From Comamonas denitrificans (GTDB lineage: Bacteria; Pseudomonadota; Gammaproteobacteria; Burkholderiales; Burkholderiaceae_C), in contig NZ_JAFNME010000009.1 in NCBI RefSeq assembly GCF_017368815.1, positions 1 to 64,000 of the forward strand: 64,000 nucleotides of DNA. Reading direction: 5' to 3'. Of this stretch, positions 21,795 through 60,655 are shown piece after piece. Positions within the stretch are counted from its first letter, which is position 1, and each line of letters opens with the position of its first letter. The translations under genes were made by a program, and so were the position numbers. The notes beneath the pieces were generated by a model. That model was not told the DNA's origin. It was given only the letters and a program-made list of their open reading frames with translations, and made no database searches.

Positions 21795-21975
21795 GGTTAC
21801 TTTTCGTCGAACGTAAAAATGTCGAAAGTCTAAGCGCCATAGAGAGCCCGTATGACATGTTCGCGATCTGCACGCCCACGCTGCTGGCCGCCATCACGAG
21901 AAGGCGCGGCGGCTGGACTGTTACCATTGGCAGCTTTACCTTTCCTCCCCCTCATCGCGCCCTTTTTTGCTTGAC

Positions 21976-24225
21976 ATGGCACTTCGTCTTATCCCTTTGG
22001 CCTTGGCCCTGTGCTACTGCGCCAAGGCACTGGCCGCAGCACCTTCCCTGGAGGATGTGCAGCAGTTGCTTGATTTGTCGCTGGAAGACTTGATCGCCAC
22101 CCCCGTGGTGACCGCGTCACGCCAAAGCGAAACACGCGACCAGACACCGGCGCACGTCATGGTGTTCACGCGCGAGCAAATTCGCCAGCGGCGCTACCAA
22201 AATTTGGCCGATTTGCTCGAAGACCTGCCCGGCGTGAATTTCCAGCGTGGCACCAAGTCCTCGCAATTCAACCAATTCACGGTGCAAGGCTATCTGGGGC
22301 CGAACAAGCTGGTGCTGATGCTGGACGGCATCCGCATTGGCCAGCCCAGTGGCGGCAACATCCCGGTGGCAGAAAATTTAGCCATCTACCATGCCAAACA
22401 GGTCGAGGTGGTTTTTGGCCCCGCTGCCGCTTTGTACGGGGCCGATGCCGTGGCCGGGGTGGTGAATATCATTACCGACAACGCCACCAACGCCACCGCC
22501 AATGGGGCCACTGGTACCGCCTCGGTGGGGCTGGGGCGCTTTGGCAGCCGCGACACTTCGTTTTTCACCAGCGCCAAAATCAGCGAGCGCCTGGGCATTA
22601 GCGTCGGTGGGCACAGCCAGCGCTCTGACCGTGCGCCGCTGGATGAGTTTTACCCCGATGATTTTCAAAAAGTCGATGGCCAATTCAACGGCCGCACCGT
22701 GCTGCCCGCAGCCACGCGCGAGGCCTATACCGGCGGCATCCGCAGCAGCAGCGTGTTTGCCCGGCTGGACTTGGGCGAACCATTGACCGCTGGCTTTTAC
22801 CGCCACCGCTTCAACAGCCTGACCAGCACGGGCGACCCCTATGCCATGGCCCGCTACGACCGCGCAGCCCAATGGCAAACCACCAACGATACGGTTTATG
22901 CCCGCTACCGCCACCGCCTGGGCGAGAACCTGCACGGGAAGCTGACGCTGGACCACGCCCAGATGCAAGTCGATCCCCGCGCCTACTACAGCAACGCTTA
23001 CAACGACTTTGGCCGGGGCTACTCCTACGTGCAGGGCAAACGCACGGGCATCGAAGAAAGCCTGCACTGGCAGGTCAATGAGCGCCACCAGGTGCAAGGC
23101 GGCCTGGGCTGGCAGGAATACACGGCGATTGAAGCGGCCTCCATGCCCCAGCCCTACAACACCGACCTGTCCCCGACGGACCAAGGCATGGTGTACCCCA
23201 ACACACCGGGGTTTCGTTTCGACACCCCGCACACGCGGTTTCACAACCTCTCGGCCTACGTGCAATGGCAAGCGCAGTGGAGTGAGCAACTTTCCAGCGT
23301 GGCCGGGGTGCGGCTGGACCGCCATTCGGTCTATGGCAGCAGCGTCAATCCCCGGCTGGGGGTGGTCTTTGTCCCCAACAAAACCCATGTTTTCAAAGCC
23401 TTGTATGGCCAAGCCTTTCGTGCGCCGTCGCCTGAAGAGAGCCTGAGCACCATCGGCCACTTTGATGGTCGCCAAGATGCCGATGGCCGCTACATTGGCA
23501 CCAACTTCCGCGTCGGCAATGAGCATTTGGAGCCAGAAACTGTCCGCTCCCTGAGCCTGACCTGGGATTGGCGGCCTGCGCAGCACCTGAACTTCAGCAC
23601 CAACCTGTACCACAGCCGCATCAGCCATCTGGTGGTGAACATGCCCACCGCCGATGTCATCACCCCCCAGATGTGGCTGCAGAAACCAGAAACCAAAGGC
23701 AACGCCGGCTACCAATTTCAAAGGGGCCTGGATATCAGCGCCCAGTGGCGCTTTCGCTGGGGGCGCAACTGGACGGGCGACCTCTGGGGCAGCGCCAGTT
23801 GGATTCACGGGCGCATCAACACCGGCAATGGCATCGAATGGCAAATTCCCTATGTCGCCAGCCGCCAGCTCAAACTGGGCACCACGCTGCGCTGGCGTGA
23901 CCAATGGAGCATCACCCCCAAGCTGCGCTGGAGCAGCAGCACCACCAATGGCCGCACCAAAGCCCCCGCCAACCCCTTGCTGCCCGCTGCCCACTGCAGC
24001 AGCACCCCCAGCGCCCCCACCCGCTGCAGCACGCCAGGGGCCGCCGTGCTGGATCTGCACCTGGGCTGGCACCAACTGCTGGACGGCAAAGCCACGCTGT
24101 GGCTGGACGTGACCAACGTGCTGGACAAGCGCTACTACGCCGCCGGTGGCGGGGGCAGCATGACGTTTTGGGACATGCCCCAGCAGCCCCGGCGCTGGAT
24201 GCTCACCCTCGACTACCGCTTTTAG
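21976..24225 (+). CDS. TonB-dependent outer-membrane receptor of signalling operon 1
   Basis: A 749-aa receptor with a signal peptide (cleavage near AKALAA), plug domain (LADLLEDLPGVNFQRG ... ADAVAGVVNIIT, about 45-170) and a 22-strand-type barrel ending YRF. The ATG at 21976 follows a TTG in the same frame. No riboswitch, Fur box or transport partner is seen, so the ligand is unknown. It is followed after 2 bp by a YfiR-like gene and then a CHASE8-type histidine kinase, suggesting that it serves envelope sensing rather than simple uptake (inference). Confidence 0.88.
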   Translation: MALRLIPLALALCYCAKALAAAPSLEDVQQLLDLSLEDLIATPVVTASRQSETRDQTPAHVMVFTREQIRQRRYQNLADLLEDLPGVNFQRGTKSSQFNQFTVQGYLGPNKLVLMLDGIRIGQPSGGNIPVAENLAIYHAKQVEVVFGPAAALYGADAVAGVVNIITDNATNATANGATGTASVGLGRFGSRDTSFFTSAKISERLGISVGGHSQRSDRAPLDEFYPDDFQKVDGQFNGRTVLPAATREAYTGGIRSSSVFARLDLGEPLTAGFYRHRFNSLTSTGDPYAMARYDRAAQWQTTNDTVYARYRHRLGENLHGKLTLDHAQMQVDPRAYYSNAYNDFGRGYSYVQGKRTGIEESLHWQVNERHQVQGGLGWQEYTAIEAASMPQPYNTDLSPTDQGMVYPNTPGFRFDTPHTRFHNLSAYVQWQAQWSEQLSSVAGVRLDRHSVYGSSVNPRLGVVFVPNKTHVFKALYGQAFRAPSPEESLSTIGHFDGRQDADGRYIGTNFRVGNEHLEPETVRSLSLTWDWRPAQHLNFSTNLYHSRISHLVVNMPTADVITPQMWLQKPETKGNAGYQFQRGLDISAQWRFRWGRNWTGDLWGSASWIHGRINTGNGIEWQIPYVASRQLKLGTTLRWRDQWSITPKLRWSSSTTNGRTKAPANPLLPAAHCSSTPSAPTRCSTPGAAVLDLHLGWHQLLDGKATLWLDVTNVLDKRYYAAGGGGSMTFWDMPQQPRRWMLTLDYRF

Positions 24226-24227
24226 GC

Positions 24228-24779
24228 ATGCGCACGATTTGCCTGCGGGGCCAGGCCCTCCTTCTGCTACTGATCGGCTGCACCAGCCTGCTCTGGACTG
24301 CCCCCACGGTGGCCCAGCCATCGCTGCTGGCTGTCAAAGCCGCTTTGCTCTTTAAGCTGCCACGCTTTACCTACCTCACCCACTTGGAGGGCAACAGCGT
24401 GCTCAACCTGTGCATTTTGGGCACCAACCCGTTTGGTGATGCCTTGCACGCCTTGGCCCAAACGCCCATTGATGCGCGCACCGTGGTCTTGCACACCCCC
24501 GCAACAGCTGAAACAGCGCAGGTATGCGATATTATTTTTATAGCTGATACCGCAGAAAATAAAAGAAATTTAAATGAAAACATTCAAACATTCAGCACCT
24601 ACCATGCGCTAACTGTTTCAGATATTGCAGGCTTTGCCCAAGCCGGTGGCATGGTTGAGCTGGCCGCCCACGCACAAGACAGCAGCAAAGTACACATCCT
24701 CATCAACCCCACGGCCGCTGCCCGCCAAGGCGTTAAGTTCAACGCCCAGCTGCTGCGCCTGGCCACCTTGCTGCCGTAA
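24228..24779 (+). CDS. YfiR-like periplasmic regulator (DUF4154), operon 1
   Basis: A 183-aa secreted protein with a signal peptide ending near TVAQP. Core features are VKAALLFKLPRFTYL, LNLCILGTNPFG, VCDIIFIAD and LTVSDIAGFAQAGGMVELA, which match YfiR, the periplasmic inhibitor of the YfiN diguanylate cyclase in Pseudomonas. Two cysteines at the usual positions (C-I-L-G and V-C-D) are kept. An AT-rich patch encodes residues about 98-128, perhaps a repeat-derived insertion. It overlaps the kinase start by one base (TAATG). Confidence 0.85.
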   Translation: MRTICLRGQALLLLLIGCTSLLWTAPTVAQPSLLAVKAALLFKLPRFTYLTHLEGNSVLNLCILGTNPFGDALHALAQTPIDARTVVLHTPATAETAQVCDIIFIADTAENKRNLNENIQTFSTYHALTVSDIAGFAQAGGMVELAAHAQDSSKVHILINPTAAARQGVKFNAQLLRLATLLP

Positions 24780-27700
24780 TGTTTCAGTTTCTGCCGCGTG
24801 CGCTGCGCCCCCAAACCATTCGACGCAAACTGCAATGGGGCTTTACTGCCGCCATTGTGCTGGTGCTGCTGCTGACCTTTGCCCTGATGCTGTTGCAACA
24901 ACAGCGCCTGATTCGCAGCGAATGGAGCACCGCCTTGCAAGCCCAGGCCCAGTTGATCGCCACCAACAGCCAGGCGGCGATGACCTTTGGCGACACCCAA
25001 GAGGCCGAGCGCCTGCTCTGGTCCAGCGAGGGCAACGCCGCCATCTTGCGTGCCCGGGTGCTGATTGCGCCTTACACGCCCGGAAAACCGCCCTATGCCG
25101 AATTTGCCCGCACTCCGGACATCCGCGAGCATGCCTCGCCCCCGCCACCGCCGCAGGGCAGCGGCATCGAGTTTCATGACGAGGAAGACCACGATCACCT
25201 GCTGGTGTGGGCCGCCATTCCCCACGCCGATCCCCCGGCCACGGTAGAGCTGCTGGCCTCGCTGCAGCCCATGCGCCAATCGATCCAGCGCACCACGCGC
25301 GAGACGGGGCTGACACTGCTGGCCGTGCTGCTGTTGTTTTTATGGGTCTCCCACCGTGCCGCCCGGCGCATTGCACGGCCGCTGCTGCGCCTCAATCAAC
25401 TCATGGGGAAGGTGGCCGACAACCCGGCCCTGACCGAACGCGCCAATGCCCACGGGCACGATGAGCTGGCCCAGCTGGGGCGCAGCCTGAACGACATGAT
25501 CGAGCGCCTGCAAAAGCGCGACCAGGAACTGCAGCAATACCGCGAAAACCTGGAAACCCTGGTCGAACACCGCACCCAAGCCCTGCAACACGCCACCGCA
25601 GAGGCCCAAGCGGCCAGCCGCGCCAAGTCCGACTTTCTGGCCCGCATGAGCCACGAAATTCGCACCCCCATGAACGCCATTGTGGGCCTGAGCAAGCTGC
25701 TCCTGAAAACAGAGCTTACCGCCCACCAGCGCGATTACCAAGAGAAGGTAATCGCCGCCTCGGACATGCTGCTGGGCCTGATCAACGACATCCTGGACTA
25801 CTCGCGCATCGAAGCGGGCAAGCTGGAAGTGGAGCACATTGATTTTGAAATCGACCAGCTCATGGGCAGCCTGGTGGGCCAAATGGCGCTGCGGGCCCAA
25901 CAAAAGGGGCTGGAGCTGCTGCTGCAGTCCGACCCGCACATCCCCAAAATCTTGCGCGGCGACCCGCTGCGCCTGACCCAGGTGCTGGTCAATTTGACCA
26001 GCAACGCCATCAAGTTCACCGAATTTGGTGAAGTCATCATCCGCATCCAGCTGCAAGCGCACACCCAGACTGGCGTGCGGCTGGAGTTTTCTGTGACCGA
26101 CTCGGGCATGGGCATCCCCGCCAACCGCCTGGGCCAGCTGTTCACCCCCTTCACCCAGGTGGATGACAGCATTACCCGCCGCTTTGGCGGCACCGGCCTG
26201 GGACTGGCCATTTGCCGCCAACTGGTCGAGCTGATGGGCGGGCAGATTCACGCCACCAGCCAAGAGGGCCAGGGCAGCCGCTTTTTCTTTACCCTGGAGC
26301 TGCCCGTGGCCCGCCGCGCCCAGCCGCTATTGCCCCCCAACAGCAGCGCCGCCACCTCGCCGCTGAGCGGCAAGCGCGTTCTGGTGGTGGATGACAACGC
26401 CAGTGCCCGTGAAATTTTGCACGCCACGCTGGTGCAATTTGGCATCCAGGCCGATGTGGTGGACAGCGGCCCAGCCTGCCTGCAGCGCCTGCAACAAGCC
26501 AATGCGGCCGGCACCCCCTACCACCTGGTGCTGCTCGATTGGCTGATGCCCGGCATGGATGGCATTGAAGTGGCCCGCCATATCCAGGCGGCCAACCTAA
26601 GCGCTGGCCTGCCCGGCATCTTGATGGTCACCGCCGGCAGCTACGAAAAACTCAGCCCCCAAGCGGCGCAAGTGGGCCTGCAGCATATTTTGACCAAACC
26701 GGTCAGCCCCACCGCCCTGCATGCGGCAATGTGCCAAGCCTTGCTCAGCCCCACAGCCAGCCCTACCAGCCCTACCAGCCCTGCCAGCCCCACCCCAGCG
26801 GCCCCGGCCAGCCGCTTCGATTTCAGCGCCATCGCCGGTGCCCGGGTGCTGCTGGTCGATGACGTAGAGCTCAACCGCACCGTGGCCCTGGCCTTTCTGG
26901 AAGAAACCGGCGTACAGGTCGAGATCGCCATCGACGGCCATGATGCCGTGACAAAAATACAAACGGCCCCGCCCCAGCACTACGACCTGGTGCTGATGGA
27001 CATCCAAATGCCCGTAATGGATGGCCTGACCGCCACCCAAACCATCCGCCAAGAAGCCCGGTTCAACCACCTGCCCATCATCGCCATGACCGCCCACGCC
27101 ATGGAAGGCGACCGCCAGCGCAGCCTGGATGCGGGCATGCAAGACCACCTGACCAAGCCCATCCACCTGGAGGCCCTCTACGCTGCCTTGCTGCGCTGGA
27201 TTGCCCCGCGCACCGACGCAAGCACGGGCACCCCGGCACACAGCAGCGTTCCAAGCGCTGCCACCACCATCCCAACGCTGCCAGGCATCGACACCGCCGT
27301 CGGCCTGGCCCACTGCCTGGGCCGGCCCGATTTGTACCTGCGCATCCTCGACAACTTTGTGCGCGAATTTGCCGATAGCGCCCCGCGCATCCAGGCCGCC
27401 CTCACTTCAGGCCCCCCGCACGATTGGCCCACCGCACGGCGCATTGCCCACTCCCTGAAATCAGCCGCCGCCACCCTGGGCGCAGCCACCTTGGCCGATG
27501 CCGCCAGAGTGCTGGAAAACGCCTACGCCGCCCAACAAGCGGCAACGCCCACAGAGTGGGATGCCATGCACGCCGAACTCACCCGCGTGCTGGCACTGCT
27601 CAGCGCCTTGCGGCCACCCAGCCCGCCCGCAAGTGCCACGCAGACACCCGTGGCAGCCGCTGCCGATGCGCTGATCGCCTTGTTAGACCACTTGGCCGAA

Positions 27701-27883
27701 TGCTTGCGCAACGACGATGCCAGCGCCCTGCGCCTGGTGGGCCAGCTGCCGCCCCTGCTGCCCCACAACCACCATGCCGCACTCGAAGAACTAGAGCTGA
27801 TACGGGAGAAGATTGAAGATGTTGAGTACGAAGAAGCACTTAATTTTTTATTAAGCCTGCGCAAACAACTATTAAATAAATAG
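24779..27883 (+). CDS. Hybrid histidine kinase with CHASE8-like sensor, two REC and HPt domains
   Basis: A 1034-aa inner-membrane phosphorelay protein. Order: TM1 (about 20-40), a periplasmic CHASE8-like segment (ATNSQAAMTFGDTQEAE), TM2 (about 180-198), HAMP, HisKA with the phospho-His in MSHEIRTPMN (H292), HATPase (GTGLGLAI ~471), REC1 (DD538, D587), REC2 (DD694, D741), and HPt with AHSLKSAAATLG (H891). CHASE8 is the segment YfiR acts on in YfiN, so the upstream YfiR-like protein is the probable partner. A Ser/Pro/Thr repeat linker joins the REC domains. The output is probably the downstream GGDEF regulator. Confidence 0.92.
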   Translation: MFQFLPRALRPQTIRRKLQWGFTAAIVLVLLLTFALMLLQQQRLIRSEWSTALQAQAQLIATNSQAAMTFGDTQEAERLLWSSEGNAAILRARVLIAPYTPGKPPYAEFARTPDIREHASPPPPPQGSGIEFHDEEDHDHLLVWAAIPHADPPATVELLASLQPMRQSIQRTTRETGLTLLAVLLLFLWVSHRAARRIARPLLRLNQLMGKVADNPALTERANAHGHDELAQLGRSLNDMIERLQKRDQELQQYRENLETLVEHRTQALQHATAEAQAASRAKSDFLARMSHEIRTPMNAIVGLSKLLLKTELTAHQRDYQEKVIAASDMLLGLINDILDYSRIEAGKLEVEHIDFEIDQLMGSLVGQMALRAQQKGLELLLQSDPHIPKILRGDPLRLTQVLVNLTSNAIKFTEFGEVIIRIQLQAHTQTGVRLEFSVTDSGMGIPANRLGQLFTPFTQVDDSITRRFGGTGLGLAICRQLVELMGGQIHATSQEGQGSRFFFTLELPVARRAQPLLPPNSSAATSPLSGKRVLVVDDNASAREILHATLVQFGIQADVVDSGPACLQRLQQANAAGTPYHLVLLDWLMPGMDGIEVARHIQAANLSAGLPGILMVTAGSYEKLSPQAAQVGLQHILTKPVSPTALHAAMCQALLSPTASPTSPTSPASPTPAAPASRFDFSAIAGARVLLVDDVELNRTVALAFLEETGVQVEIAIDGHDAVTKIQTAPPQHYDLVLMDIQMPVMDGLTATQTIRQEARFNHLPIIAMTAHAMEGDRQRSLDAGMQDHLTKPIHLEALYAALLRWIAPRTDASTGTPAHSSVPSAATTIPTLPGIDTAVGLAHCLGRPDLYLRILDNFVREFADSAPRIQAALTSGPPHDWPTARRIAHSLKSAAATLGAATLADAARVLENAYAAQQAATPTEWDAMHAELTRVLALLSALRPPSPPASATQTPVAAAADALIALLDHLAECLRNDDASALRLVGQLPPLLPHNHHAALEELELIREKIEDVEYEEALNFLLSLRKQLLNK

Positions 27884-27885
27884 CA

Positions 27886-28797
27886 ATGAACCTGATTAAC
27901 ACCGAATTTACCCTGCTCATCGTCGATGACGAAAAGCAAAACCGCCTGCTGCTGACCGAGCTGTTTGGCACCACATACAAAATCATCCAGGCCAAAAACG
28001 GGGTGCAAGCCCTGGAAAAAGCGCGCCAGCACCGCCCCGACCTGATCCTGCTGGATGTGCTCATGCCCGAGATGGACGGCATGGGCGTACTGCGCGAGCT
28101 CAAACGCGACGATGCCACCCGCCTCATTCCGGTGATTTTCATCACCGCGCTGGACTCGGCCACCGATGAAGCAAACGGCCTGAACCTAGGGGCCGTGGAC
28201 TACATCTCCAAGCCCTTTCACCCCCCCATCGTGCGCGTGCGCGTGCACAACCAGCTGCAGCTGGTACACCAGCGGCGCTTGCTGGAGCAGTTGGCCTCGC
28301 TGGATGGGCTGACCGGCATCCCCAACCGCCGCCAGTTCGATGCCACGCTGCTCAAAGAATGGCACCGCTGCCAGCGCAACCAGCAACCGCTGTCGCTGAT
28401 CGTGGCCGATGTTGATTTTTTCAAAAAATACAACGATGCCCTGGGCCACGCGGCCGGCGACCGCGTGCTGCAGGAAGTGGCGGCCACCTTGCGCCAAGCG
28501 GCCCGCCGCCCCGGCGACCTGGTGGCCCGCTACGGCGGAGAAGAATTTGTTCTGCTGCTGCCCGAAACCGATGCCACCAGCGCCCAGGCCCTGGCCGAGG
28601 GCTTGCAACAATTGCTGCACAGCAAGGCCTTTGCCCACCCCAACTCCAGCCTTGGCCCGTGGCTGACCATGAGCATGGGCGGCAACACCATCGTCCCCAG
28701 CACCACCGCACTCGACCCCGAATTTTTCGCCCTGGCCGATGCGGCCCTGTACCGCGCCAAACACCAAGGCCGCAACCAAGTGCGCTGGGCCAATTAA
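27886..28797 (+). CDS. Response regulator diguanylate cyclase (REC-GGDEF)
   Basis: A 303-aa cytoplasmic response regulator. REC domain with DDE at 14-16 and phospho-acceptor D57 (LLDVLMPEMDG), then a GGDEF domain starting DGLTGIPNRRQ with intact GGEEF at 217-221. The product-inhibition I-site RPGD is present 9 residues before GGEEF. It therefore should make c-di-GMP on phosphorylation and be feedback-inhibited. It starts 2 bp after the hybrid kinase and likely receives phosphate from its HPt domain. Confidence 0.93.
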   Translation: MNLINTEFTLLIVDDEKQNRLLLTELFGTTYKIIQAKNGVQALEKARQHRPDLILLDVLMPEMDGMGVLRELKRDDATRLIPVIFITALDSATDEANGLNLGAVDYISKPFHPPIVRVRVHNQLQLVHQRRLLEQLASLDGLTGIPNRRQFDATLLKEWHRCQRNQQPLSLIVADVDFFKKYNDALGHAAGDRVLQEVAATLRQAARRPGDLVARYGGEEFVLLLPETDATSAQALAEGLQQLLHSKAFAHPNSSLGPWLTMSMGGNTIVPSTTALDPEFFALADAALYRAKHQGRNQVRWAN

Positions 28798-48793: not shown

Positions 48794-50590
48794 ATGCCTG
48801 TGATTACCGCCCAGTTGGACATGGCCCAGCCCTTACACCCCGGCTGTGCCCGCTTGCAAGCCCAATTTGGCCCACCCGCCCAGGTATGGGTGGCCCATAC
48901 CGCCGACGAGTTGCTGAGCGTATTGGCCCAGGTGGAGGCTGCCGCCCGGGCCGGTGCCTGGTGCCTGGGGGCCGTTGCCTACGAGGCTGCCGCCGCCTTG
49001 GAAGCCGATTTGCCCACCCAGCCCGCCAACACCGCGCTGGCCTGGTTTGCCCAGTTTGCCGCCCCGGTGCCGCAGACGGCCAGCGCTGAGGCCTCCGCCT
49101 GGGCCACCCCCTTGCACTGGAATGCCGGACAGACATCCACGGCATTTGCCGCCACCTTGGCGCAAATTCATGCTGATATTGCGGCGGGGCGCTATTACCA
49201 GCTCAACCTCACCCAGACGTACCACGGCACCAGCCCCCACACCATCGACCGCCACGCCTTGTTTGCCGCGCTGCAGCAGGCGCAGCCGGGCGGCTTCAGC
49301 ATTTTTTTGGACATGGGGCAGGAGGCGCTGCTGTCGGTTTCCCCCGAATTATTTTTTGACTGGCACCAGCCCGCCCAGGGCAGCGGCAGCATTCTCACCC
49401 GCCCCATGAAAGGCACCGCCGCCCGGGGCACCACCCCGGCACACGACGCGGCCCAGGCCGAGCACCTGCGCAGCAGCGCCAAAGAGCGGGCCGAGAACGT
49501 GATGATTGTCGATTTGCTGCGCAACGACCTGGGCCGCATCGCGCAAATCGGCAGCGTCAGCGTGCCTGCGCTGTTTGAGCTGCAGGCGTTGCCCAGCGTC
49601 TGGCAAATGACTTCGGATGTGCGGGCCCAACTGCCCCAGGGCACCGCGTTGAAAACGATTTTTCAGGCGCTGTTTCCCTGCGGCTCCATCACCGGTGCGC
49701 CCAAGCGCAGCAGCATGGCCGCCATTGCCGCGCTGGAGAGCGAAGCGCGCGGCTGGTATTGCGGCGCTGCAGGCGTGGTGCGCAGCGACGGCGCGGGTGG
49801 CGTGCGCGCCACCTTCAACGTGCCCATTCGCACGCTGGTGGTGCAAGGTGCCAGCACCGTGCGCTGCGGCATTGGCAGCGGCATCACCGCCGATGCCCAC
49901 GCCGCCAGCGAATGGCGCGAATGGGCCGCCAAACGGGCATTTTTTGAAAGGGTGAGCATGCCATTTGCCATTTTGGAAACCCTGGCTTTGGATGGCGGCC
50001 AGCTGCGCCACCAGGACTTGCACCTGGAGCGCATGGCCAGCGCTGCAGCGCATTTTGCCTATCCCTGGGATGGGCACGCCGCCCACAGCGCCCTGGCCCA
50101 ACTGGCCCAACAACACCCCCACGGGCTATGGCGCTGCCGCCTGCAACTGCACGCCAATGGGCAGGTAGAGGCGCAGGCCTTTGCCTGCCCGCCCGCGCCA
50201 GCGCACATCACCTTGCAGTGGGCCAGCGCAGCTTTGGCGCAAGCGCACAGCGAATTTGTACGCTTTAAAACCACCCGCCGCGCCCATTACGAGGCGCTGG
50301 CCCCGGCCGCCGACAGCGGCATTTTTGACAGCGTGCTCTTTAACGAAGCGGGCGAAATCACCGAATGCACGCGCGGCAACATCGCCGCCCAACTGGCCGA
50401 TGGCCGCTGGGTCACGCCGCCCCTGGCCTGCGGCCTGCTCCCCGGCATTGGCCGCGCTGTGGCGCTGCAGCAAGGGCGGGTGGTGGAGGCAGTGATTCGG
50501 CTGGAGGATGCACCCCAGGTGCGGGCCTGGGCTTTTATCAACAGCCTGCGCGGCTGGATCCCGGCGCAGCTATCAAAACCGCACCCCTAG
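48794..50590 (+). CDS. pabBC: Aminodeoxychorismate synthase I fused to aminodeoxychorismate lyase
   Basis: A 598-aa bifunctional fusion for p-aminobenzoate (folate) synthesis. Residues about 1-385 are a PabB chorismate-binding domain (RYYQLNLTQTYHG, RPMKGTAARGTTPAHD, CGSITGAPKRSSM, GIGSGITADA). Residues about 395-598 are a class IV aminotransferase-fold PabC with the PLP lysine in FVRFKTTRR near 490 and ECTRGNIAAQ. The 3' end overlaps the convergent TonB receptor gene by 18 bases. Confidence 0.9.
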   Translation: MPVITAQLDMAQPLHPGCARLQAQFGPPAQVWVAHTADELLSVLAQVEAAARAGAWCLGAVAYEAAAALEADLPTQPANTALAWFAQFAAPVPQTASAEASAWATPLHWNAGQTSTAFAATLAQIHADIAAGRYYQLNLTQTYHGTSPHTIDRHALFAALQQAQPGGFSIFLDMGQEALLSVSPELFFDWHQPAQGSGSILTRPMKGTAARGTTPAHDAAQAEHLRSSAKERAENVMIVDLLRNDLGRIAQIGSVSVPALFELQALPSVWQMTSDVRAQLPQGTALKTIFQALFPCGSITGAPKRSSMAAIAALESEARGWYCGAAGVVRSDGAGGVRATFNVPIRTLVVQGASTVRCGIGSGITADAHAASEWREWAAKRAFFERVSMPFAILETLALDGGQLRHQDLHLERMASAAAHFAYPWDGHAAHSALAQLAQQHPHGLWRCRLQLHANGQVEAQAFACPPAPAHITLQWASAALAQAHSEFVRFKTTRRAHYEALAPAADSGIFDSVLFNEAGEITECTRGNIAAQLADGRWVTPPLACGLLPGIGRAVALQQGRVVEAVIRLEDAPQVRAWAFINSLRGWIPAQLSKPHP

Positions 50591-52948
50591 CCGCAGGTAG
50601 TACGCCGCTCCGTTAAAACCAAAGGGCGCGTACTGGGAATAAGCAATGGGTTTGCCAACGCCAATAATGGGGTCGGTGGTCTGACCCCACTGGCTTGGCC
50701 GGGTATTGAGCAGATTGGTGCCGCCCACGGTCAGCGTGGTGTTTTTGCTCAGGCGGTAGCTCAGCTGGGCATCCAGCGTCCACTGGGCGGCAAAGCCCAC
50801 CTTGTCGCTCCCGTAGGTGCTGGCGTAGCTGCCGAAGTAATTGAGGTTGAAGGTCAGGTCGTACTGCGCGGTGCTGTAGCGGCTCCACAGCTTGGCGCTG
50901 TGCCTGGGCTGGCCCGCTTCCAGGGTGACGCGCGCGTATGGGTCCAGCACCAGATCGGTCATATCCACCCCCAGCACCGAAGGGGCTGCGTTCACGCCGG
51001 TAATGCGGGTGGCCGCGTAGCTGTAGGCTGCCCGCAGATGCCAGCGCCGACCAGGGGCCAGGTCGTGCTGGTAGTCCAGGCGCAGATCGACACCGTGGGT
51101 GCGAGTGCGTACGGCGTTGGTGAAGTAAGTGGCACCCTCCACCCCGTACTGCTGCAAGATCGCCTGGGCTTGGGGGCTGAGCTGCGCCAGGCTCGATTTG
51201 GCAATGTAGCTGGTGGGCATGATGCGATCGTCAATCTCGGTGACAAAGCCATCCATGCTGGCCGTCAGCTGCGGGCTGGGTTGCCAGACCGTGCCGAAGG
51301 TGAGGTGCTGGGATTTTTCCGGCTTTAAATCCTGGGCCCCCAGAGCGCGGGCCACCGGGTGGCTAACCCCGTAGTGGCCGTACTGCAAGAGGGCGCTGCC
51401 ATCAAGCACCGTCGAGGTGGAGGTGAAGCCGGTCTGGGTCAGCGAAGGGGCGCGAAACCCGGTACTCAAGCCACCGCGCAGCAGCCATTGGGGCGTGGGC
51501 TGATAGCGCACGGCCAGTTTGCCATTCAAGGTAGGGCCAAAGTCGCTGTAATGCTCGGCCCGCAGGGCACCCAACACAGTCCACTGAGGGTGCAGGGCGT
51601 ACTTGGCATCCAGGTACACAGCATGGCTGTCGCGCTGGGCGTGGGTGGCGTTGTCCGGGCTGAAGCCACCAAACCCCTGGGCCCCGGCGTACCAGGGTGA
51701 ATCGGGCCCCAGGGTGTACGAGGCGGGCTCGCCCGCACGGATGCGGTAATCGGCACGGCGGTATTCGTAGCCCCCCGCCAGGCTGTGTGGGCCGAAGTTG
51801 TGCTGCACATCGGCGTTGAGGGTGTGCTGAACAAACGCCGTGCTGCCACTGTCAAACCGAGTGGGCGAGTCAGCGCCCAAAGAGCGGTTGAGCGAGTTGC
51901 GTACAAAAAACCGGTAGTCGTTCATGCCTGCGGTGTAGGCCAAGCTCCAAGGGCTGCCGCTGGCCAAAATGCCTTTGACCCCGAAGGAAGCGGACAAATC
52001 CGTAATGCGCGGCGCAATCTGCGGCAAAAAGCCCTGGGGGTAGATGCTGGGCAGATTTTTATCGCTGTCGGCATTACGGAAAAACGCTCCGGCCCTGCTG
52101 TGGCGGCGGCTCAGATGGCCATGGCTGAACAGTGTGGTGTCGCCCTGCGGCAACTCGGCGTTCCAGGCCAGTTGGCCGTCTTGGGTATCGGCATCGCCAA
52201 AGTGCAGTCGGGTCTGCCCATCCGCATCAGGCCGGGCCCGGTTGCTGCTGCCCCGGTCGCGCAGCTCGGCAGTGATATTGAAAAAACCATCGCTCGCCAA
52301 GGCCGTGCTGTGAAACAGGCTGGCCTGGCGCTGAATGCCATCGCCCTGGGTGGTGCGGCCCCAGCCCAGCAGCGCCTGGTTGGTCTGGCCATAGCCTTTG
52401 AGCACGATGTTGATGATGCCGGCAATCGCATCCGAGCCGTATTGCGCTGCCGCGCCATCGCGCAGCACTTCCACCCGCTCCACCGCCAGCAGGGGGATGG
52501 TGTTCAAGTCCACGCTGGAGCTGCCCCGGCCAATCGTGCTGTTGGTGTGCAGCAGCGAGCTTTGGTGCAACCGCTTGCCATTGACCAGCACCAGCACCTG
52601 GTCGGGGCTGAGGGAGCGCAGGGTAAACGGCGGGGCATGGTCAGTGCCATCCGCAATCGAGGGGCGGGGGTGGTTGAATCCGGGCACCAAAGCGGCCAGG
52701 GCGTAGGCCAGGCCCATTTCGCCCACCGACAGCAATTGCTCGGTGGTGTACACATCGGTGGGCACGATGGCGTGCAGGGCGGTATGCGCCCCATCGCGCG
52801 TGCCAACATCCGCTTGCAGGGGCACTTGAACACGCACCAGCTCCTCCAGCGGCAGGTCGTACAGGGTCTGGCCAGCGACAACGGGCTCGGCCTGGGCCCT
52901 AGGCAGGCCCAGTACAACCAGCGACAGGAGGCACAAAAATAGCTTCAT
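50573..52948 (-). CDS. TonB-dependent outer-membrane receptor of signalling operon 2
   Basis: A 791-aa receptor: signal peptide ending near RAQAEP, plug domain (VLVLVNGKRLHQSS, VERVEVLRDGAAAQYGSDAIAGIINIV), and a barrel ending YYLRLGVRF. It resembles siderophore or vitamin receptors but the ligand is unknown. Its ATG overlaps the stop of a YfiR-like gene (ATGA), making it the last gene of an operon with that gene and a membrane diguanylate cyclase. The set mirrors the one at 22-29 kb with reversed gene order. Confidence 0.88.
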   Translation of the reverse strand: MKLFLCLLSLVVLGLPRAQAEPVVAGQTLYDLPLEELVRVQVPLQADVGTRDGAHTALHAIVPTDVYTTEQLLSVGEMGLAYALAALVPGFNHPRPSIADGTDHAPPFTLRSLSPDQVLVLVNGKRLHQSSLLHTNSTIGRGSSSVDLNTIPLLAVERVEVLRDGAAAQYGSDAIAGIINIVLKGYGQTNQALLGWGRTTQGDGIQRQASLFHSTALASDGFFNITAELRDRGSSNRARPDADGQTRLHFGDADTQDGQLAWNAELPQGDTTLFSHGHLSRRHSRAGAFFRNADSDKNLPSIYPQGFLPQIAPRITDLSASFGVKGILASGSPWSLAYTAGMNDYRFFVRNSLNRSLGADSPTRFDSGSTAFVQHTLNADVQHNFGPHSLAGGYEYRRADYRIRAGEPASYTLGPDSPWYAGAQGFGGFSPDNATHAQRDSHAVYLDAKYALHPQWTVLGALRAEHYSDFGPTLNGKLAVRYQPTPQWLLRGGLSTGFRAPSLTQTGFTSTSTVLDGSALLQYGHYGVSHPVARALGAQDLKPEKSQHLTFGTVWQPSPQLTASMDGFVTEIDDRIMPTSYIAKSSLAQLSPQAQAILQQYGVEGATYFTNAVRTRTHGVDLRLDYQHDLAPGRRWHLRAAYSYAATRITGVNAAPSVLGVDMTDLVLDPYARVTLEAGQPRHSAKLWSRYSTAQYDLTFNLNYFGSYASTYGSDKVGFAAQWTLDAQLSYRLSKNTTLTVGGTNLLNTRPSQWGQTTDPIIGVGKPIAYSQYAPFGFNGAAYYLRLGVRF

Positions 52949-53502
52949 GGCGAATCTTTTCGAAGCACCGTTGCAATCGACAACAACGGGGCAGCAATGC
53001 GCAGTCCGGAGGCCAGGGCCGCGTCGTAATTAATTTTGATCTGGACGTTCTGCGCCACCCGGGTCATTTGGATGATGCCACCTTGCTCGGCAAAGCCTTT
53101 GGCATCGCTGACCGTCAAGATGTGGGCACGGTGCGCGTAGGCGATGGCCGCCTGACGCTCAGCGACCGTGGGCAGGGCGATAAACAGCAGATCGGGCGGT
53201 TGTGGGCCCAGTGCGGCCACACTGTCGGCCTGGGTAATGCGCACGGGCCGCCCATGGATAAGCTTGTCGGCATACAGCGCCTGCAGCTGCTGGCCAAAGG
53301 GATTGGGGCCGACGACAGCCATCTCAAAAACCTCGCGCTGCGACCCTTCGAGCCATTGCACGTAACTGGCAAAACGCCCCAAAAAGACGGCTTGCAGCTG
53401 CAGCTGCGCTTCGTTGGCATAGGCTGCAGGGCTGGCACTGCACAGGCACATTGCCAACAGCACGCCGTGCCACCAGCGCCGCAGCGTGGCCAGGCCGAGC
53501 AC
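52945..53502 (-). CDS. YfiR-like periplasmic regulator (DUF4154), operon 2
   Basis: A 185-aa secreted protein, signal peptide ending near AYANEA. The core is LQAVFLGRFASYVQWL, MAVVGPNPFGQQL, LLFIALP and LTVSDAKGFAEQGGIIQM. Unlike the paralog at 24.2 kb it lacks the cysteines at the C-I-L-G and V-C-D positions, so disulfide-based redox control is unlikely. Start is GTG at 53502, sharing its G with the TAG stop of the cyclase gene. It probably restrains that cyclase. Confidence 0.87.
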   Translation of the reverse strand: MLGLATLRRWWHGVLLAMCLCSASPAAYANEAQLQLQAVFLGRFASYVQWLEGSQREVFEMAVVGPNPFGQQLQALYADKLIHGRPVRITQADSVAALGPQPPDLLFIALPTVAERQAAIAYAHRAHILTVSDAKGFAEQGGIIQMTRVAQNVQIKINYDAALASGLRIAAPLLSIATVLRKDSP

Positions 53503-54740
53503 TAGGCGGCCCCCTCGGTATGGGCAACTACCCGATTACGCCCCGCTTGCTTGGCGCAATAGAGGGCTTGATCAGCCGCTTCAACCAACTGCATCATGGC
53601 TTCAGGGGTGGTGATGCTGGCTTGTACTCCCAGGCTAACGGTAACGCGCAGGGTGGCCCCCTGGGGGGTGGTAAATACCTGCTCGGCAACTACCGTGCGG
53701 ATGCGCTCGGCCACTTGCACCGCCGTGGGCACATCGGTATCGGCGCAAAGCACCAAAAACTCCTCCCCGCCAAAACGGGCCGCAATGTCGTCAGTGCGAA
53801 TGCTGGCCTGCAGCCGGTGGGCCACTTGCTGCAAGATCAAGTCGCCCACCGGGTGACCATAGGTGTCATTGACCAGCTTGAAGTGGTCCACATCCAGCAA
53901 GATCACGCCCAGCGGGGTTTGGTTGCGCTCGGACTGGGCGGCCAAGGTCTGCATGGTTTCAAGCGCAAAGCGGCGGTTGGCCAGGCCCGTCAAAGGGTCG
54001 GTGGTGGCCAGGTGGCTAAGCTTTTCATCGCGCACGCGCACCTCGCGCAGCATGGCGTTAAAGCCCTGGTAAAGCTCGCCAAATTCGTCGGTACGGTCGG
54101 TGTGCAGCGTGGTGCTGTAGTCCTTGCTGCTGCCGATGTGGCGCATGCCCTGCACCAGTTGCGTAATGGGTTGGGTGAAAATCAATTGCAAGCGCCAGGA
54201 CAGCAGCAGCAGGCCGGCAAAAATCAACACGGTCACACCGATTTGCAGCACCATGTATCGCCGCATCTTGGTGTACATGGCCTGGTTATCGGACAGCACG
54301 GCCAAACGACCAACGGGACTGCCCTCTAACTCAATGGGGTAGATGACGTAGTGAAACTCCCGATCCATGTGCTGCTGCAGGGCCGAGGGCTGCAGCAGCA
54401 GTTTGTGCCAGCGCGTGGCACGGTCGGCCGAGATGCTGGCCGCCTGGTACTGGGCCAGCACGCTGCCGCGCTCATCCAGCGCCACGGCGTACTGAATGTG
54501 GGGGTCGGCCTGCAAGGAGTGCAAGATTTTCTGGGCGCTGTGGCCATCGCGAAAGGCCAGGGCAGCGCGCATGTTTTCGCTGGTCACGGCCGCCACCTGG
54601 CGCAAAGTGCGCAGCGAGGCCTGTTGCTCGGCAACAAAGGTGGTGTACAGCGCCACGGCCGAGGAGATGAGCAACCCTACCCCCAAACTGACGCCCAGCA
54701 GCACCAGAAGTTTGTAGCGGATGGAGAGTCGGTTGAACAT
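53502..54740 (-). CDS. Membrane diguanylate cyclase, YfiN-like (CHASE8-HAMP-GGDEF)
   Basis: A 412-aa inner-membrane protein. TM1 about 10-32, CHASE8-like periplasmic region with VTSENMRAALAFRDGHSAQK, TM2 about 165-185, HAMP, and GGDEF domain with DPLTGLANRR and intact GGEEF near 323-327. The I-site RTDD precedes it. It should synthesise c-di-GMP, with inhibition by the neighbouring YfiR-like protein, as in the Pseudomonas YfiBNR system. Start at 54740 (MFNRLSIRYKLL) was preferred over an ATG 57 bases upstream. Confidence 0.9.
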   Translation of the reverse strand: MFNRLSIRYKLLVLLGVSLGVGLLISSAVALYTTFVAEQQASLRTLRQVAAVTSENMRAALAFRDGHSAQKILHSLQADPHIQYAVALDERGSVLAQYQAASISADRATRWHKLLLQPSALQQHMDREFHYVIYPIELEGSPVGRLAVLSDNQAMYTKMRRYMVLQIGVTVLIFAGLLLLSWRLQLIFTQPITQLVQGMRHIGSSKDYSTTLHTDRTDEFGELYQGFNAMLREVRVRDEKLSHLATTDPLTGLANRRFALETMQTLAAQSERNQTPLGVILLDVDHFKLVNDTYGHPVGDLILQQVAHRLQASIRTDDIAARFGGEEFLVLCADTDVPTAVQVAERIRTVVAEQVFTTPQGATLRVTVSLGVQASITTPEAMMQLVEAADQALYCAKQAGRNRVVAHTEGAA

Positions 54741-59103: not shown

Positions 59104-60627
59104 TTATTGTTCATGGGCTACCTGGTTGCGGCCCCGTGTCTTGGCCAGGTACAGCTGGGCATCAGCCTGCGCTTGCAGGGCCTGGGCGCTGCTGGTCTGC
59201 GGCCCCAGGGTGGCAACGCCGATGCTGGCCGTCACGTGCCCATAGAGGGATTGGGCGTGGGCCAGGCCCAGGGCAGCCACGGCAGCGCGAATGGCCTCGG
59301 CAATCTGCACGGCCTGGGCCAGCGGGGTATCGGGCAGCAGCAGAACAAACTCTTCCCCGCCGTAGCGGGCCGCCAGATCGCTGGCTCGGGTAGCGTGCTG
59401 CTGCAAGACCTGGGCCACCGCATACAGGTAGTCGTCCCCCGTGGCATGGCCGTAGTGGTCATTCACGGCTTTGAAAAAATCGAGGTCCAGCATCAGCAGG
59501 CTCAACGGGCTGCCGCTGCGCTGGCAGCGGGCGTACTCTTGCGCCAGCACCTGGTCGTACCGGCGGCGGTTGGCCAGATGGGTCAGGGCATCGGTTTGGC
59601 TGACGCGCTCCAGCTGCGCATTGGCGGCTTGCAAGGCGTGCTGTTGGGTGCGGATTTGTTGGTTGCTGCGCGCCAGTTGGCGGGTCAGGCGGCGGTAATA
59701 GTGCAGCGCCACCAAGGCCACCACGGCGAGCAAGGCCGCACCGATGCTGGCCGCCTGCCATGCGCTGCGTTGCTGGCGCTGGGCCAAATAGCGCTCAATG
59801 AGCTGGCGCTCGCCTTGCGTATGGGCTTGCAGCGAGGCGCTGGTGTCCAGTGCCTGCACATAGCGGCCCATCACCTGGGCCAGGGTGCGGTGCGCGTCAC
59901 TTTGCCCCAGGTAAAAGCCATAGCTGCGCGGGTATTCTTTGAGCGCATGGATGATCTCCAGGTCAAACAGCTCGTAGTGGTAGCGCTGCTCCTGATAAAA
60001 ATCGCGACTAAAGACGGCAATGTCAATCTGCCCATCGCGCAGGGCATCAAACAAACCACCCGCCGAAAACGACTCGCGAAAGCGCAGCAGCTGCGGGATG
60101 CTTTGCTGCAAGATCGGCTCCAGCGCCACACCAGCGACCACCCCCACCCGATAGCGGGCCAAGTCTGCGGTACTCGCGACCTCCTGCATTTGCCCTTTGC
60201 GGGCAATGGCCACGTAGTGGCTTTGGTACAGCGGCGCGGTGAAATGCCCGCGCTGGCTGCGCTCGGGCGTGGGACTGAGGGGCAAAAAAATATCGGCCTG
60301 CCCGTTTTGCACCAGGGCTATTTTTTCCAGCACTTTGAGATGCTGGGCGCTTTCGATATGAAAGCGCAGCCCCAATTGCGCACTGATAAAGCACAGGGCA
60401 TCAATGCCCAAGCCGCTGTAGCGGTCATGGGCCTGGTCGTACAGGGCCAAAGGCGGGGTGCCCACGGCAACCACGCGCAGCGGCTGGGGCAGTTGCTGCA
60501 ACGCGGCCTGCTCCTGCGCCGTGACGACCACGGGCTGGCGCAGCTGCACCCGCGCCGGCTGCGGGCACTCGGTGGCGGCGTGGGCACAGGCCCAGCACAG
60601 CCCCAGGGCTGGCAGCCAGCGACGCAT
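59104..60627 (-). CDS. Periplasmic SBP domain fused to GGDEF diguanylate cyclase
   Basis: A 507-aa membrane protein. A signal peptide (cleavage near AHAATE) leads to an extracytoplasmic SBP_bac_3-like domain (VVAVGTPPLALY, GLGIDALCFISAQLGL, about 45-270), then a TM helix (about 290-310), coiled coil and GGDEF domain with intact GGEEF and I-site RASD. It probably makes c-di-GMP in response to an amino-acid-like ligand. Start at 60627 is the first ATG; a TTG six codons upstream is possible. It lies 29 bp downstream of panD. Confidence 0.88.
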   Translation of the reverse strand: MRRWLPALGLCWACAHAATECPQPARVQLRQPVVVTAQEQAALQQLPQPLRVVAVGTPPLALYDQAHDRYSGLGIDALCFISAQLGLRFHIESAQHLKVLEKIALVQNGQADIFLPLSPTPERSQRGHFTAPLYQSHYVAIARKGQMQEVASTADLARYRVGVVAGVALEPILQQSIPQLLRFRESFSAGGLFDALRDGQIDIAVFSRDFYQEQRYHYELFDLEIIHALKEYPRSYGFYLGQSDAHRTLAQVMGRYVQALDTSASLQAHTQGERQLIERYLAQRQQRSAWQAASIGAALLAVVALVALHYYRRLTRQLARSNQQIRTQQHALQAANAQLERVSQTDALTHLANRRRYDQVLAQEYARCQRSGSPLSLLMLDLDFFKAVNDHYGHATGDDYLYAVAQVLQQHATRASDLAARYGGEEFVLLLPDTPLAQAVQIAEAIRAAVAALGLAHAQSLYGHVTASIGVATLGPQTSSAQALQAQADAQLYLAKTRGRNQVAHEQ

Positions 60628-60655
60628 AAGCAAAAAAATAAACAACCCCTGCGTA

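Follow-up and report, generated by a model that had tools for sequence, protein, structure and literature searches.

The window, by which we mean the whole 64,000-nucleotide stretch of DNA that was analysed, carries a minus-strand module for a YfiN-like diguanylate cyclase, a periplasmic YfiR-like protein and a TonB-dependent receptor (TBDR). Such trios probably act as a ligand-gated trans-envelope relay, with the receptor replacing YfiB and its tail binding YfiR and so freeing the CHASE8 sensor domain. Across genomes, TBDR genes adjoined many YfiR genes but none with a YfiB-like neighbor, the three parts were co-inherited, and the YfiR-adjacent receptors had a common N-terminal segment.

Two diverged modules in the window

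An earlier note on this DNA had placed a cyclase-YfiR-receptor trio at 50573..54740, and the coordinates, the Pfam domains and the 1-nt and 4-nt gene overlaps bore it out. The features of this module (module 2) are as follows.

53502..54740, minus strand: DGC2, YfiN-like diguanylate cyclase (ATG start; two transmembrane segments, CHASE8-HAMP-GGDEF)
54297..54623, minus strand: CHASE8 periplasmic sensor domain, DGC2 residues 59-167 (Pfam PF17152, 7e-16)
53532..54008, minus strand: GGDEF domain, DGC2 residues 264-422 (Pfam PF00990, 4e-48)
52945..53502, minus strand: YfiR2, periplasmic YfiR/HmsC-like protein (GTG start; DUF4154, PF13689, 7.5e-32)
50573..52948, minus strand: TBDR2, TonB-dependent receptor (ATG start; PF07715 Plug, 1.4e-17; PF00593 TonB barrel, 7.6e-44)
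52835..52858, minus strand: SLEEL-type N-terminal segment, TBDR2 residues 31-38 (DLPLEELV), a putative YfiR contact

The open frame of DGC2 starts upstream of the ATG, at TTG 54797. Its HAMP domain was matched at 4e-10 in Pfam, the GGEEF active site was intact by eye, and an I-site-like RxxD motif (RTDD) ends five residues ahead of GGEEF. The three genes lie head to tail, with the YfiR2 start overlapping the DGC2 stop by 1 nt and TBDR2 overlapping YfiR2 by 4 nt, and these overlaps suggest an operon; a promoter scan ahead of DGC2 found none. Upstream on the same strand are panB and panC, and downstream is a convergent pabB-like gene. The AlphaFold model of YfiR2 (mean pLDDT, 92.1) had YfiR structures as its top Foldseek matches in the PDB (2.5e-08), and a profile built from 76 YfiRs retrieved the P. 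aeruginosa YfiR structure from the PDB (6e-31). TBDR2 has both the plug and the beta-barrel domain of a TonB-dependent receptor, and its model (mean pLDDT, 88.6) matched Cir, PfeA, BtuB and others. Horizontal gain of module 2 was not supported by G+C content (0.628 in the module versus 0.618 in the window). A further gene, 4.3 kb from the module (59104-60645, minus strand), encodes a protein that combines GGDEF with a periplasmic binding domain of the SBP_bac_3 type.

The same note had claimed a further module in the window with a different output and gene order, and the domains found at 21967-28797 agree.

21967..24225, plus strand: TBDR1, module 1 receptor (Pfam; SLEEL segment at residues 34-42, LLDLSLEDL)
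24228..24779, plus strand: YfiR1 (PF13689)
24779..27883, plus strand: HK1 hybrid kinase, CHASE8-HAMP-HisKA-HATPase-REC-REC-Hpt (Pfam)
27886..28797, plus strand: REC-GGDEF response regulator adjoining HK1 (Pfam)

Module 1 is thus a diverged trio with a kinase output, in the order receptor, YfiR, CHASE8 hybrid kinase, REC-GGDEF, about 22 kb from module 2. The receptors and YfiRs were as diverged as had been noted: TBDR1 and TBDR2 shared 22% identity over their best aligned stretch (BLASTP, 1.6e-15), and YfiR1 and YfiR2 shared 34.5%. PF13689 had only two matches in the 3.0-Mb genome, YfiR1 and YfiR2, and the plug domain had nine; with so few of each, it is unexpected by chance that both YfiRs abut a receptor.

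YfiR loci across genomes and co-inheritance of the three parts

PF13689 was found in 94 of 398 genomes of a phylum-wide sample (125 places); of 61 closer genomes, 18 had it (28 places). With 10 places shared, this gave 143 YfiR ORFs, and the surroundings of all of them were annotated with HMMs built on the proteins of the window, YfiB-like genes being identified by an OmpA/Pal motif pattern. In the phylum sample, a same-strand TBDR lay within 3.5 kb of 76 of the 125 YfiR genes (62 within 250 bp or overlapping), a YfiB-like gene was found at 15, neither partner at 34 and both at none. Over all 143 ORFs, the corresponding numbers were 84 (70 within 250 bp or overlapping), 24, 35 and 0, and a CHASE8 protein was near 118. 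At the 114 loci with 3.5 kb on both sides, the others being cut by contig ends, there were 65 with a TBDR and 22 with a YfiB-like gene. The mutual exclusion of the two partners had a Fisher value of 1.9e-11 over loci and 0.002 over 81 YfiR clusters (50% identity). Within 250 bp of YfiR, 70 receptors were on the same strand and one was on the opposite strand. The output was GGDEF at all 24 YfiB-type loci, and at TBDR-type loci it was a kinase in 55, GGDEF in 13 and unassigned in 16. Elsewhere in the window's genus, most of the YfiR loci sampled were of the YfiB type (10/14); module 2 was found in one sampled genome of the genus (G019) and module 1 in G005 and G012, as well as in G035, where no receptor was detected. 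At YfiR2 position 37, receptor-linked YfiRs had Lys in 82% of 60 and YfiB-linked YfiRs had Val in 91% of 11. With Gln at this position in YfiR2, a simple Lys-Glu contact is not the general rule.

To the earlier note's proposal that receptor, YfiR and CHASE8 form a functional unit, with incongruent trees as the finding that would speak against it, the phylogenies added support alongside the locus association. FastTree trees of 70 complete trios gave Spearman distance correlations of 0.31 for receptor-YfiR, 0.32 for receptor-CHASE8 and 0.64 for YfiR-CHASE8, each exceeding all 999 label shuffles, the two receptor correlations being modest. The closest receptor from another genome belonged to one of the three closest YfiRs in 48 of the 70 trios (at random, 3.2 on average and 12 at most). 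When partners were shuffled only within the nine multi-module genomes, the observed value was reached in 4 of 2,000 shuffles for receptor-YfiR, 40 of 2,000 for receptor-CHASE8 and 114 of 2,000 for YfiR-CHASE8, the latter two signals being weaker than the first. The five TBDR2-type trios (module 2 itself, W2, with L035, L268, L093 and L148) formed an exact five-member clade in the receptor, YfiR and CHASE8 trees, with FastTree support of 1.0, 0.98 and 0.94. This one clade contains two gene orders (cyclase-YfiR-receptor and YfiR-receptor-CHASE8) and two outputs, and the claim that output and order vary around the trio held within it. For module 1, the same two loci (L037 and L038) were the closest relatives in each tree.

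Six ORFs were YfiR-kinase fusions (L053, L141, L153, L158, L160 and L161), with a long coiled-coil-like linker and a transmembrane segment and without a CHASE8 hit; three of them had a receptor within 450 bp, on the opposite strand in two cases. One 3.7-Mb genome (G051; L043-L045, L049, L050 and L053) had seven PF13689 matches, and a receptor was close to six of these, once on the opposite strand.

The N-terminal SLEEL segment of the receptors

Ahead of the plug, YfiR-adjacent receptors have in common a degenerate N-terminal "SLEEL" segment with the profile consensus DDLLDMSLEELMNVEVTSASRKEQ and a core leucine that is 92% conserved. Its degeneracy counts against it, as a literal pattern of six residues matched 45 of the 90 rows for YfiR-proximal receptors. 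Tails of receptors within 3.5 kb of YfiR and of 49 controls were scored held-out (5-fold by sequence cluster), and the medians were 38.7 and 6.6 bits, respectively, with baseline scores that include signal-peptide similarity. The 12.5-bit mark was exceeded by 83 of the 87 YfiR-proximal receptors and by 1 of the 49 controls. Two of the four low scorers (L167 and the second receptor of L149) lie 2.8 and 3.4 kb from YfiR and are encoded on the other strand; the other two, L035 and L093, are of the TBDR2 type, and their low held-out scores, 10.6 and 12.0 bits, count against the segment. Removal of the 17 plug-adjacent residues left medians of 17.8 versus 6.4 bits (AUC, 0.94; 82 same-strand receptors and 49 controls), with at least 10 bits in 73 of the 82 receptors and 6 of the 49 controls. 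By a crude estimate, the stretch between a signal-peptidase-like site and the plug had a median length of 41 residues near YfiR versus 30 in controls.

Some controls scored high, which also counts against the segment, above all L183 at 52.2 bits. Five of 40 further controls scored 14.8 to 55.5 bits (L235, L236, L266, L242 and L244) and the rest 9.9 or less; L266 is the gene of L183, taken deliberately. Over 30 bits there were 3 of 88 distinct controls, namely L183/L266 counted as one gene, L235 and L236; at the last two, YfiR was not found near. The neighbor of L242 had no Pfam hit. At L244 (850-3435), where the receptor tail is a weaker one of the form SLQEL, the next gene is a divergent YfiR-like one (E value, 8.7e-4, below the PF13689 cut-off). 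No YfiR was found at L266 (165-8289), where the neighbors of the SLEEL-type receptor are a hybrid kinase with SBP_bac_3, a REC-kinase and a sigma-54 response regulator, and this tail may have other periplasmic partners.

In the window's genome, two of nine receptors had the segment, and both abut YfiR; five others scored at most 5.4 bits, and L170 and L185 have canonical TonB boxes. The segment of TBDR2 falls within residues 1-55, which had pLDDT values under 50; AlphaFold placed a helix at residues 34-39 (LEELVR) in this stretch, a modeled hint that carries little weight.

TBDR2 belongs to a receptor family separate from the group of TBDR1. Used alone as a query of genome contigs it gave no match, and an alignment query gave 578 relatives, the best 80 of which were analysed. 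TBDR2 was 33 to 40% identical to receptors of Bacteroidota, Gemmatimonadota, Alphaproteobacteria and others, and 60% identical to one from Zoogloea (L268). Among the best 80 of 578, L268 alone had a YfiR beside it (flanks up to 6 kb, shorter at contig ends; YfiR, 1.5e-38; CHASE8, 4.2e-30), and its tail also had the best score, 23.0 bits. The other tails of this set were under 10 bits apart from L307, which had 15.8 bits and the box NVEELVITGTR with no YfiR seen in its flanks and so counts against the pattern. By eye, TonB boxes of the type TLDTVIVTGTR are present in most of the other relatives among the best 80 of 578; in 44 of these 80, the alignment begins only at TBDR2 residue 48 or 49. From these sequences, the TBDR2 family seems to have joined YfiR separately from the group of TBDR1, with a change of tail. 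Three more TBDR2-type receptors that adjoin YfiR (L093, L116 and L148; 41 to 43% identical) were absent from the best 80 of 578; their order is YfiR-receptor, followed by a CHASE8 protein in L093 (a kinase) and L148.

The proposed relay, its alternatives and known systems

Ligand binding is established to expose the tails of other TBDRs to TonB. In the relay proposed here, YfiR would at rest sit on the inner-membrane CHASE8 domain, with the output off. A ligand on the receptor would expose the periplasmic N-terminal tail, and the SLEEL segment, which adjoins the TonB-box region, would bind YfiR and draw it to the outer membrane, so that CHASE8 would be freed. The freed CHASE8 would turn DGC2 on directly in module 2, and in module 1 the signal would act on the hybrid kinase HK1 with its REC-GGDEF neighbor. 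We infer the ligand gating, the binding of YfiR to the tail and the sign of regulation, and the direction could be the reverse. The YfiR ORFs without either partner (35/143) count against the relay. So does the pocket that receives F57 of YfiB, which appears only partly kept: at L166, I169, V176, P178 and L181, YfiR2 reads, by eye, Y, A, I, A and L. In the YfiB-YfiR structure, the YfiR dimer is described as embraced by a rearranged N-terminal part of YfiB (PMC4887326).

A somewhat unlikely alternative is that the receptor imports a small molecule, YfiR is its binding protein, ligand-loaded YfiR alters CHASE8 and the tail serves TonB only. The Foldseek matches of YfiR2 also included a substrate-binding protein of Rhodothermus (5z6v, 5.2e-07) and, at weaker scores, other solute-binding proteins; weak binding of vitamin B6 and L-Trp has been described for P. 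aeruginosa YfiR (PMC4887326), and the SLEEL receptor of L266 adjoins a kinase with an SBP_bac_3 domain. However, import leaves unexplained the conserved N-terminal segment of YfiR-adjacent receptors, its presence in the TBDR2 family mainly in members with YfiR, and the exclusion with YfiB-like genes. The same exclusion and the tail signature argue against a co-regulated uptake operon and biofilm switch without physical coupling, which we consider improbable even though the gene overlaps suggest co-transcription: the trio has been co-inherited through output swaps and reordering, and the immediate neighbors of module 2 are panC and the pabB-like gene, not transport genes. Chance or phylogenetic hitchhiking was already disfavoured and is very improbable. 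The modest receptor-YfiR and receptor-CHASE8 correlations (0.31 and 0.32) and the 114 shuffles that reached the YfiR-CHASE8 value would fit it, but the 70 same-strand receptors against one opposite, the five-member clade in three trees and the 4 of 2,000 shuffles for receptor-YfiR would not.

The relay with the receptor in place of YfiB has a known counterpart in YfiBNR of Pseudomonas aeruginosa (where YfiN is TpbB) and YfiR-DgcN-YfiB of E. coli, which have the YfiR fold in common with module 2. As in module 2, YfiBNR combines a CHASE8-HAMP-GGDEF cyclase with an outer-membrane partner gene in an operon, but that partner is the OmpA/Pal lipoprotein YfiB rather than a TBDR, and a search of the same strand out to 3.5 kb from YfiR1 and from YfiR2 found no OmpA-type motif. 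The Cys145/Cys152 pair of YfiBNR is absent from YfiR2 (by eye), and the I-site-like RxxD motif sets DGC2 apart from YfiN, which is said to be without I-sites (PMC10127611). YfiR2 and DGC2 scored below the NCBIfam equivalog cut-offs for YfiR (29 versus 85 bits) and DgcN/YfiN (204 versus 325 bits). In transducers of the FecA-FecR type, a receptor tail ahead of the TonB box signals. That use of the tail is the likeness; TBDR1 and TBDR2 have a short segment only, and no N-terminal signaling domain was hit in either by Pfam at an E value of 0.001.

A YfiR-YfiN[PAS] core with swapped outputs has been published, and yfiB was reported to be absent from almost all distant YfiN-YfiR operons (Malone 2012, PMC3375315), which left the question of their input. 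TBDRs adjoin 76 of the 110 phylum-sample YfiR genes that are without a YfiB-like gene. Whether this is a general mode is, in our judgment, evenly balanced: TBDRs of at least two families would have gained a short YfiR-docking tail that leads from a surface nutrient to a c-di-GMP or phosphorelay output, with YfiB as a minority alternative input. Under the relay, biofilm decisions would be tied to nutrients sensed at the cell surface, with no sigma factor involved, and it offers a concrete, mutable contact of about ten residues. In open-licence papers, mostly as abstracts, we found none on TBDR-YfiR coupling; nor did the open-licence literature, in which the segment letters were not queried, yield a source for a receptor as YfiB replacement, for TBDR/YfiB exclusion or for the tail segment. 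The NCBIfam families NF053590, NF053591 and NF053592 are named TOL_0244 family receptor, TOL_0243 family YfiR-like protein and YfiR-like-associated sensor kinase, and from these names and the neighboring locus tags the kinase-type trio seems to be known to curators. Module 2 scored 64, 86 and 122 bits against their cut-offs of 645, 125 and 194 bits; its output is a cyclase, not a kinase, and TBDR2 is from another receptor family. The receptor TOL_0244 was reported to be up sevenfold on n-C28 alkane versus Tween 80 and to resemble OmpS (PMC6304351), a response that hints at a ligand class for this TOL_0244 relative only.
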